Below are positions 46,696 through 49,179 of a DNA stretch of 64,000 nt, piece by piece. Source of the stretch: Chroococcidiopsis thermalis PCC 7203 (lineage in GTDB: Bacteria > Cyanobacteriota > Cyanobacteriia > Cyanobacteriales > Chroococcidiopsidaceae). Under the pieces are notes generated by a model. The model did not search any database. It was not told the DNA's origin and saw only the letters and a program-made list of their open reading frames with translations. A program made the translations under genes and the position numbers. Position 1 is the first letter of the stretch. Each line of letters opens with the position of its first letter. The DNA lies in assembly GCF_000317125.1 (NCBI RefSeq), contig NC_019695.1, positions 484,336 to 548,335 of the forward strand, written 5' to 3'.

Positions 46696-46723
46696 GTAAG
46701 GGCGCACGGCTGTGCGCCCCTAT
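46696..46723. repeat. GTAG...CTAC-type palindrome between groEL and the selD fusion
   Basis: Arms GTAAGGGCGCAC and GTGCGCCCCTAT (imperfect at the ends). The minus-strand reading of its right edge supplies the TAG stop of the selD fusion gene (46720-46722). Same family as 26192. Confidence 0.85.
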
Positions 46724-49179
46724 ACATTGGATAAATTTATGGTTATTGGTTGGCGATCGCCCTCTAAATCTACTACCTTGCCAATAATGCAACTTTGTGC
46801 ATAGCCTAAACTATGTAGCTTATCTAGACATTGACTGGCTTGTTCTGCTGGAATTGATGCTAGTAAACCGCCCGATGTCTGCGGATCGAATAAGAGCGAG
46901 TAGCGAGCAGACGGGCTGAGCGATTCTGAACCAGCGATGTTTAGATCGGTAATAAAACGAGCAATGCGTAAATTTTCCGCTTGCAGCGAACTGACAATTC
47001 CTTTTTGTAATGTAGCGATCGCACCTTCTAGAGCAGGAATTGCTGCTAAATTTAAATCTACCGCACAGGCAGAGATGCCTACGCTACGGGAAGCTCGAAC
47101 CATTTCGTACAAGTGTCCGGCAAGCCCAAAACCCGTAACATCAGTACAAGCAGTGGCTCCATGTGCCATTAAACAAGCAGCTGCGACTTGATTCGATTGC
47201 AACATTGAAGTAACAGCGCGATCGATCCAATCTCCTTTAGTTTCCCGTTGCATCTCGGCAGCAAAAAGGGTTCCCGTACCAAGGGCTTTAGTTAAAATTA
47301 GAACTTGTCCTGGCTGCATTCCACCTTTGCGCAGAAGTTTATTCGGGTGGACTAAACCGTTACAAGATAAGCCAAATTCCAATTCGCTGCCTTCAGTTGT
47401 GTGTCCACCTACCAAAGGTGTCTGCGCGTCAGCTAGCACTTTGACTGCGCCGGATAGTAACTGATAAAGGGTTTCTTCTGTTTTGGATTCTAAAGCATAG
47501 GGAATAGTTGCGATCGCCAATGCACTTTGAGGTGTCGCACCCATTGCAAAAATATCGCTGAGGCAATGGTTGGCAGTAATTTGTCCAAAAATATACGGAT
47601 CGTTGATGAGACTGTGGAAATGATCTATGGTGTGTACCATCCACAAACCGCCTGGTACTTCCACCACCGCCGCATCGTCAGGAGCATCTAGCCCGATAAT
47701 AATATCTTGGCGATTGCACCAGTTAGTACTATCCTGCTTGATTTGATTGAGTACCCTTGCTAAAACTGTGCTGCTAACCTTAGAACCGCAGCCAGCACAA
47801 GGCATAGGGAATTCGGAATTCGGAATTCGGAATTCGGAATTCGGAATTTGTTTTGACGTTTGACTTTTAACTTTTGACTTTTGCCCTTTCTCCTGCATTT
47901 GCGGTAAGTTACTAAACCGTTGCATGAATTTGCGATCGATCGCATCTTTCCAGCGCCACAGCCAGCCAGTAGCGCCAAAACCAAGTTTTCCCCATGCCGC
48001 GATCGCTTTGCCGTCTCCCGTACCGATTAAACTTAAATATTGTTTCTGCGGTTTGTAAGGCTGTAGCGATCGCCCTAATAATGCTCGTCGCAGGTTTTTA
48101 AATAAAGGTTTGCCTTGGCGCACGGCAAATACTCCAGCTTTGGGACGGGGATAATTTACCATTGAGGCAATATCACCCGCTGCAAATACATCTGGATGGG
48201 AAACCGATTGTAGTGCATCGTTGACGAGAATAAATCCGCGTTCGTCAGTGGCGATTCCTGCGGCTTGTAGCCAATCGGGTGCGGAGGCTTGCGTTACCCA
48301 GAAGATGCGATCGCATTCTACCTGCAATCCAGATTCACATTTGATGGTGTAGGGTGTTGGTAGGGGCGGGTTTGGAAACCCGCCCGTATAGGTGTAGGGT
48401 GTGGGGTACGATTGGATTTCACAAACGGTTTCTTGCAGGTGTAGTTGAATTCTTTTGTGGATTAAAATCTCTTGACAGCGATGCCGTACCCAGGAATTGT
48501 AATTTGGCATTAATTCAGCACCGCGCTGAAATAGATGAATTTCTAGATCTCGATCTTCCCTCTCCTCCCTGAATAAGCGAGAAGACTTAGCCCCCCTTTT
48601 TAAGGGGGGTTGGGGGGATCTTATAGACTGCAAATGACCCTGCATTGCCATTGCTAACTCGACTCCGCCAGCACCTCCACCGACAATTCCCAGGCGCAAT
48701 GTAGAGACGTTACATGTAACGTCTCTACATGTTGTAACGTCTCTACACAAGTCATACCAATGTTGCAGAAACTGCGCCACTGGTTTTGCTGGAATCGCGT
48801 ACTCTGCTGCACCAGGTACGGAAATTTGAGCCGGAGTGCTGCCAATATCAACGGAAAGCAAATCGTACGCTACAGGCGGACGATTGGCACAAATAACTTT
48901 TTTATTAACTAAATCTAATCCAACAACGAGATCGCGATAAAATTGCACCCGAGCAAATTGAGCTAAACGTCGCAGATCGATGTGGCATTCTTCATGAGTG
49001 TAAAATCCGGCAACGTGACCGGGTAACATCCCCGAATAAGGAGTATCTGACGCTTCTGTAATTAATGTGACTCGAATGCCTGGTATCGGTTTCATGCCCA
49101 GCATTCTCAGGACAATAGCATGGCTGTGACCGCCGCCAATCAGGACTAAATCTTTAGTTACGAGTTGCGATCGCTGCAT
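46720..49179 (-). CDS. selD: Fusion: FAD-dependent NADH dehydrogenase-like domain + selenide,water dikinase (SelD)
   Basis: 819 residues. Residues 1-430 are a two-Rossmann flavoprotein (LVLIGGGHSHAIVL at 11-24, GIVGGGAGGVELAMAM at 164-179, VFAAGDIA at 331). Residues 459-819 are SelD, making selenophosphate from selenide and ATP: catalytic CAGCGSK with Cys464 (second Cys of the E. coli motif replaced by Ser), GLDAPDDAAVV and DIFAMGA, VTGFGLAGHLYEM. With no selenocysteine system usual in cyanobacteria, the product probably serves tRNA 2-selenouridine. Four segments (145-160, 184-208, 256-278, 431-458) are translated dispersed repeats. Confidence 0.93.
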   Translation of the reverse strand: MQRSQLVTKDLVLIGGGHSHAIVLRMLGMKPIPGIRVTLITEASDTPYSGMLPGHVAGFYTHEECHIDLRRLAQFARVQFYRDLVVGLDLVNKKVICANRPPVAYDLLSVDIGSTPAQISVPGAAEYAIPAKPVAQFLQHWYDLCRDVTTCRDVTCNVSTLRLGIVGGGAGGVELAMAMQGHLQSIRSPQPPLKRGAKSSRLFREEREDRDLEIHLFQRGAELMPNYNSWVRHRCQEILIHKRIQLHLQETVCEIQSYPTPYTYTGGFPNPPLPTPYTIKCESGLQVECDRIFWVTQASAPDWLQAAGIATDERGFILVNDALQSVSHPDVFAAGDIASMVNYPRPKAGVFAVRQGKPLFKNLRRALLGRSLQPYKPQKQYLSLIGTGDGKAIAAWGKLGFGATGWLWRWKDAIDRKFMQRFSNLPQMQEKGQKSKVKSQTSKQIPNSEFRIPNSEFPMPCAGCGSKVSSTVLARVLNQIKQDSTNWCNRQDIIIGLDAPDDAAVVEVPGGLWMVHTIDHFHSLINDPYIFGQITANHCLSDIFAMGATPQSALAIATIPYALESKTEETLYQLLSGAVKVLADAQTPLVGGHTTEGSELEFGLSCNGLVHPNKLLRKGGMQPGQVLILTKALGTGTLFAAEMQRETKGDWIDRAVTSMLQSNQVAAACLMAHGATACTDVTGFGLAGHLYEMVRASRSVGISACAVDLNLAAIPALEGAIATLQKGIVSSLQAENLRIARFITDLNIAGSESLSPSARYSLLFDPQTSGGLLASIPAEQASQCLDKLHSLGYAQSCIIGKVVDLEGDRQPITINLSNV
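47808..47884. repeat. Heptamer arrays inside selD fusion (GGAATTC and CTTTTGA types)
   Basis: About five GGAATTC units then about four TTTTGAC/TTTTAAC units. Because 3 x 7 = 21 bases, the array encodes a heptapeptide repeat (IPNSEFR IPNSEFP). It forms the linker between the flavoprotein and SelD domains. Confidence 0.92.
48360..48388. repeat. GTAG...GTAT palindrome inside selD fusion
   Basis: Arms TAGGGGCGGGTTT and AAACCCGCCCGTA around GG, flanked by GTGTAGG units. Encodes TYTGGFPNPPLPTP in the flavoprotein domain. Confidence 0.9.
48588..48625. repeat. CCCCCCTTTTTAAGGGGGG element inside selD fusion
   Basis: CCCCCCTTTTTAAGGGGGG followed by TTGGGGGGATCTTA. Encodes IRSPQPPLKRGAK. Same family as 50150-50178 and 63335-63367. 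Confidence 0.9.
48701..48747. repeat. Perfect 28-base palindrome plus half copy inside selD fusion
   Basis: GTAGAGACGTTACA / TGTAACGTCTCTAC without spacer, followed by a second half-copy GTAACGTCTCTAC. Encodes CRDVTTCRDVTCNVST just before the second Rossmann motif. Confidence 0.92.

Follow-up and report, generated by a model that had tools for sequence, protein, structure and literature searches.

How can one enzyme gene carry, within its reading frame, several unrelated repeats of the kind that lie scattered through the rest of the genome? The question is raised by a minus-strand ORF of 819 aa at 46720-49179 of the window, the whole stretch of 64,000 nucleotides analysed here, taken from Chroococcidiopsis thermalis PCC 7203. 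The product is a fusion of an oxidoreductase (NADH-dehydrogenase-like) with a selenide water dikinase (SelD). Both parts exceeded the curated cut-offs of their models, TIGR03169 for the N-terminal oxidoreductase domain (residues 10-422, 499.2 bits against 310) and TIGR00476 for selD (residues 461-780, 290.5 bits against 125), which assigns the protein to the Nterm_to_SelD fusion type; Pfam matches were to Pyr_redox_2, AIRS and AIRS_C, and the score with TIGR04369, the fusion_not_SelD model, was 507.8 bits, below its cut-off of 700. The fusion protein was present in 19 of 19 genomes of the family, its own genome counted, and was matched in 116 of 242 genomes of the class at E <= 1e-100. The gene is convergent with the neighbouring ORF at 45014-46681, which from its sequence we take to be groEL.

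Four dispersed-repeat segments were located in the fusion gene, all on the minus strand, in frame and free of stops. Site 1 (48699-48748, residues ~144-160) is a GTAGAGACG palindrome with a duplicated arm, and site 2 (48592-48620, residues ~186-209) is a CCCCCC/GGGGGG element. Site 3 (48346-48405, residues ~256-279) consists of a GGGCGGGTTT palindrome (48360-48388) with heptamer-like flanks, while site 4 (residues ~431-458) forms the interdomain linker and is built of GGAATTC heptamers (47808-47848) and TTTTGAC heptamers (47851-47883). The units of site 4 are 7 nt long and in tandem, with repeats in register at a spacing of 14, as in a heptameric tandem (STRR-like) repeat. An AAAAGTC array is stop-free in the orientation used at site 4, and the opposite orientation has a stop in every frame. 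An earlier note on this DNA had described four in-frame repeat types in the gene; all were found approximately where it had placed them, and each type is dispersed. Judged from these matches, the four segments are coding sequence derived from dispersed repeats.

The extent of dispersal was measured in the genome that holds the window (G000, 6.69 Mb), in two congeners (G008 and G009) and in five genomes outside the genus. Exact matches in G000, G008 and G009 numbered 123, 21 and 96 for the site 1 pattern GTAGAGACGTT-N6-AACGTCTCTAC, 112, 127 and 46 for the site 2 pattern CCCCCCTT-N3-AAGGGGGG, and 19, 12 and 26 for the site 3 pattern GGGCGGGTTT-N0..30-AAACCCGCCC. These palindromic patterns were counted on one strand, and the control, each pattern read backwards, gave no matches in any of the eight genomes searched for each. 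Among the five genomes searched outside the genus, G001 alone had the site 1 palindrome (5 matches), G007 and G021 alone had the site 2 element (3 and 16 matches), and none had the site 3 palindrome. For the heptamers of site 4, a 464-kb sample searched on both strands contained 34 matches to AAAAGTC x2 with one mismatch allowed and 8 to GGAATTC x2. Repeated 13-mers, defined as those with at least six copies and with HIP1-like sequences excluded, amounted to 544 types, versus none in one order-4 Markov sequence.

With respect to location, repeats covered 0.13-0.67% of coding bases and 2.6-10.6% of intergenic bases in three blocks. The description of these repeats as otherwise intergenic is therefore right for the greater part, but interior repeat sites, 32 in all, were also found in 25 of 331 gene calls in the 464 kb. 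Four of these sites lie in the SelD fusion, the maximum for any gene; when the 32 sites were placed at random, a maximum of at least four arose in 0.65% of 10,000 trials. The gene calls came from a codon-score ORF picker rather than a trained gene finder, and the top rank of the fusion is partly a selection effect, since the gene had been picked by the earlier note. Interior repeats in genes are thus general, with the SelD fusion at the extreme of the sample. A 928-aa gene call on the minus strand (56576-59362) holds repeats at two interior positions. One, at 58110-58169, consists of heptamers that are different in G008 and partly so in G009; the other, at 58838-58881, is an element that is kept in G008 and was not recognised in G009.

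To place the segments in a wider context, 67 orthologs were aligned, 64 of them from outside the genus; the 67 were fetched loci whose ORF reached 600 aa or more, rather than all 116 matching genomes of the class. Conservation of the same four segments across distant cyanobacteria, which the earlier note had named as the outcome that would count against it, was not seen among these 64, in which the loops are mostly shorter and unrelated. The site 1 loop has 23 aa in G000 against an outside median of 18, the site 2 loop 29 against 14, the site 3 loop 31 against 12 and the site 4 linker 35 against 26.5, and loops as long or longer occur in 4, 2, 2 and 14 of the 64, respectively, counts that are biased upward because 20 of the 64 were chosen with a bias to long proteins. 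In G009 the site 1 loop has 17 aa, one fewer than the outside median, which indicates that the palindrome replaced the native loop there. Outside the genus the linker has 9 to 74 aa, and by this comparison site 4 is better described as turnover of a pre-existing linker than as a net insertion. The word insertion, which the earlier note applied to all four segments, accordingly suits sites 2 and 3, which are clear gains of length, but not the replacement at site 1 in G009 or the turnover at site 4. At site 3 a same-family ortholog (L025, genome G016) shows a G-rich repetitive insertion of its own, and the linker of a further ortholog (L128, genome G098) contains two C-run/G-run palindrome-like stretches, identified by eye, that resemble the site 2 element class.

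Alignment of the DNA of the three congeners showed that the occupants of these sites have changed within the genus. At site 1 the 30-bp palindrome stands by itself in G009 and is accompanied by a duplicated arm in G000; in G008 only its left arm is present, the remainder being replaced by a CCCCC/GGGGG element. The palindrome core of site 3 is of the GGGTTT type in G000 and G009 and of the GCAC type in G008, and its flanking units in G000 differ from those of the other congeners. Site 4 is made of CCGAATT (GGAATTC-type) units in G000 and of CCCGACT-type units in G008 and G009, degenerate in G008. Site 2 is near-identical in all three. The expectation that the segments would be absent or different in relatives was thus borne out at sites 1, 3 and 4 within the genus and at all four among the 64 outside orthologs. 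The exchange between GCAC-type and GGGTTT-type cores was seen in two genes, the other being a minus-strand gene call at 25360-27348, in which the segment at 26188-26217 has the GCAC-type core in G000 and the GGGTTT-type core in both congeners, with a length difference of +3.

The sites affected coincide with positions at which the protein varies in length. Among the 64 outside orthologs, with the congeners excluded, the most length-variable internal segments were residues 431-455, 259-277, 481-488, 186-209 and 148-160, in that order, corresponding to site 4, site 3, none of the four, site 2 and site 1. The N-terminal segment ranked first but, since each ORF had been read from one stop to the next, it was left aside and not counted as internal. 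The proposal that the repeats sit at tolerated loop sites therefore gains support from indel variability, four of the five most variable segments being the four sites, as would be expected of indel-tolerant loops. AlphaFold2 models were of low confidence both for the full-length protein (mean pLDDT 44.0, six-sequence alignment) and for residues 1-440 (mean pLDDT 45.8, five-sequence alignment), the alignments being limited by the five related loci found. In the full-length model the segments were mostly coil, although site 1 began in the end of a helix and the edges of site 3 lay in strands, and the shorter model agreed for sites 1-3; given the low confidence of both, the placement in loops rests on the indel variability. 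On that footing the four segments seem to occupy loops where length can vary, possibly at the surface, as the earlier note proposed.

Repetitive linkers were also observed in other lineages. Linker DNA was self-repetitive in 8 of the 64 outside orthologs, two of which belong to the 20 length-biased picks, and self-repetitive stretches made up 7.1% of linker bases versus 0.22% in the rest of the genes; base-shuffled linkers yielded 0.1 carriers on average. The rest of the gene, although ~23 times longer than the linker, had such a stretch somewhere in 7 of the 64, and sites 1, 2 and 3 had self-repetitive DNA in 1, 1 and 2 of the 64, the screen being one that misses C/G-run elements, as its score of 0 at site 2 in each of the three congeners shows. 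Two linker units were searched for in genomes. TGGTCAC had 58 overlapping matches in its host, G001, and was common in G000 and G009 too; its backwards control carries no information, since reversal of the unit yields the same sequence in a shifted phase. GGCAGAA had 129 matches in its host, G021, and none in four other genomes searched. As the unit was dispersed in the host in both linkers tested, at least two outside lineages fill the same linker with repeats from their own genome.

The explanation we favour, with a probability of about 0.8, is that a functional two-domain enzyme with length-tolerant loops absorbs in-frame copies of repeats whose occupants later change. Several loops and one interdomain linker of the SelD fusion would be nearly free in length, in a genus rich in very short dispersed repeats, both palindromes and tandem heptamers. 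Such repeats would arrive or recombine genome-wide; copies that land in or overwrite a loop, in frame and stop-free, would survive, and copies elsewhere in the gene would be purged. Once a loop is occupied, further insertion, slippage or recombination between dispersed copies could change the occupant, and congeners would for that reason carry different repeats at the same spot. The comparisons of sequence establish repeat identity, the open frame, absence from the aligned outside orthologs, occupant change, purifying selection on the core and length variability of the sites. Beyond these, the loops are probably near-neutral, the repeat segments are presumably translated, and the exchange of repeats may proceed by recombination, template switching or nested insertion.

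Other accounts of the segments can be set against this one. The repetitive character could have arisen on the spot, replication slippage having made ordinary loop sequence locally repetitive with no arriving element; the tandem heptamers of site 4, the duplicated arm of site 1, which resembles a local duplication, and the wide range of linker lengths outside the genus would all suit such an origin. Against it, the sequences of sites 1, 2 and 3 match interspersed elements with 123, 112 and 19 genome copies and none in the backwards control, the heptamer types of site 4 are dispersed in the 464-kb sample, and the linker units of both outside lineages that were tested recur across their host genomes, so that we regard slippage as an unlikely source. 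It is rather less probable again that the repeat-encoded peptides have been taken into a specific role, such as docking, regulation or required disorder. The occupants of sites 1, 3 and 4 vary among the congeners, the loops in most of the 64 outside orthologs are shorter and unrelated to these, and dN/dS across the insert regions was 0.86, 0.73 and 0.81 in the three congener pairs, values that are only rough because the aligned sequence there is partly non-homologous, against 0.162, 0.096 and 0.120 for the core in the same pairs. What speaks for such a role is site 2, with 0, 3 and 3 non-synonymous differences among the congeners.

The unusual load of repeat segments might also be read as a mark of a decaying or unexpressed gene, in which insertions are tolerated because nothing matters. 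To this we give hardly any credence. The ORF is open in G000, G008 and G009, and the core dN/dS of 0.10-0.16 indicates that purifying selection acts on the core of the protein. Cys464 and Lys467 of the fusion align with a Cys and a Lys of E. coli SelD (3u0o), residues that we take to be catalytic. In addition, selenophosphate has a user in the same genome, G000, namely a tRNA 2-selenouridine synthase that scored 372.8 bits against a cut-off of 219.75. The absorption of repeats by tolerant loops of a functional enzyme thus remains our preferred reading.

Turnover was next followed at repeat addresses in and around the window, where 127 repeat segments gave orthologous addresses in G009 (42) and G008 (67) when both 100-bp flanks were required within 200-kb stretches of the congeners; the set was ascertained from G000, and the two congeners are not independent. 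Intergenic address pairs (n=82) comprised 46 with a different repeat, 30 conserved, 5 empty and 1 other, and genic pairs (n=27) comprised 9 different, 16 conserved, none empty and 2 other. These labels depend on a 70% identity cut and err in both directions: site 4 was called conserved in both congeners (0.72 and 0.70) although the heptamer type differs, and site 1 of G009 is one of the 9 called different although it is the same palindrome minus the duplicated arm. A tally based on repeat class, which overlooks copies that have degenerated, site 2 of G008 among them, agreed in direction, with 29 switched, 24 same, 13 overlapping and 8 unrecognised among 74 intergenic pairs, and 7, 11, 3 and 4 among 25 genic pairs. 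Of the unoccupied control sites, 16 of 297 intergenic ones and 5 of 375 coding ones had a repeat in the congener. By these comparisons, the addresses of repeats around the window are often kept while their contents change.

Where length had changed, the difference was a multiple of 3 at 12 of 16 genic versus 17 of 67 intergenic addresses (Fisher P 3.5e-4), with 6 of the 16 belonging to the SelD fusion. Two of the four genic changes that were not multiples of 3 are segment-boundary effects at site 4, where the whole ORFs are open, and the other two lie within ~75 nt of called gene starts. Tentatively, and with the odds somewhat against it, we suggest a more general view in which repeat addresses in the genus would be persistent sockets, intergenic or coding, where a resident repeat gives way to an unrelated one instead of being lost, through a process directed at repeats already present or at ends that repeats share. 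In coding sockets a filter for frame would apply, and the protein loops there would be rewritten wholesale by the current repeat.

Several elements of this picture have relatives among known systems. The small dispersed repeats (SDR) of Nostoc described by Elhai et al. in 2008 are reportedly very short and possibly mobile, and are similar in these respects to the cyanobacterial repeats considered here; no priority over them is claimed. The palindromic elements of Rickettsia (RPE) are 105-146 bp long and occur in protein-coding genes, and a host enzyme, Gmk, was shown to be translated and active (PMC2229807). In both cases small dispersed palindromic repeats are fused in frame within conserved genes, but here the elements are of ~20-50 bp, belong to unrelated classes within one gene, and differ between congeners, and the host family includes Aliterella and Chroococcus, not Rickettsia. 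For the GTAG REPs, of which cyanobacterial families are known, the source describes some as intragenic, some genes as hit twice, and different REPs at approximately the same recB site in two Xanthomonas species (PMC3733652). Short palindromes carrying GTAG, some of them intragenic, are the shared feature; in those REPs the GTAG tag is unpaired (PMC3733652), whereas here it is paired with CTAC, and heptamer arrays and C/G-run elements share the gene. In the 30-bp form that it has in G009, the site 1 palindrome is self-complementary throughout, GTAG/CTAC included; for the site 3 palindrome the figure is 86%. RAYT was considered as the mobiliser but gained no support, as the association of GTAG REPs with RAYT was not found in G000: with 1.5 kb scanned on each side of the four Y1_Tnp genes found in that genome, three of the four loci had none of the scanned motifs and one had a single GTAGAGACG half-site more than 1 kb away. 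Other long ORFs adjoin these Y1_Tnp genes; their length would fit IS200/605 accessory proteins.

Heptamers arranged in tandem and scattered over the genome are likewise on record for cyanobacteria, and one type in Nostoc PCC 7120 is 68% intergenic, the remainder not (PMC4692102); the difference here is that one type stands in place of another at orthologous positions within coding sequence, where the frame is preserved. Small variable segments are short, differ between strains at one locus, are often intragenic and in frame, and number several per gene in some cases (PMC2884548); they vary within species and mostly lack a repeat label, whereas the occupants here are dispersed repeats. Intragenic RPEs, intragenic GTAG REPs, with two insertions in a single gene, and partly genic Nostoc heptamers are already in print. 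In the literature covered, which is that outside Elhai 2008 and most subscription papers and was in part available as excerpts, no description was found of a single enzyme that combines repeats of several unrelated classes, with exchange of type between congeners.

The three congeners, together with some of the outside orthologs, amount to a set of loop swaps made by nature in a single enzyme, with different repeat DNA in the same loops or linker. With such a set one can test how non-coding DNA that is scattered through a genome turns into protein, and whether loop evolution proceeds by replacement of whole segments rather than by point change. It also points to a turnover of repeats that is stable in address and changing in content, and that could be measured across cyanobacteria.

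An additional in-frame insertion of 18 nt in the SelD domain (site 5, 47068-47087, minus strand), found only in G000 among the three congeners, was tried as a fifth dispersed repeat and rejected. It is single copy, the sole G000 match at up to 3 mismatches being site 5 itself, and the one 3-mismatch match in each congener is at control level. Between the groEL-like ORF and the SelD fusion, a GGGCGCAC/GTGCGCCC palindrome lies at 46697-46725 and recurs there in both congeners.
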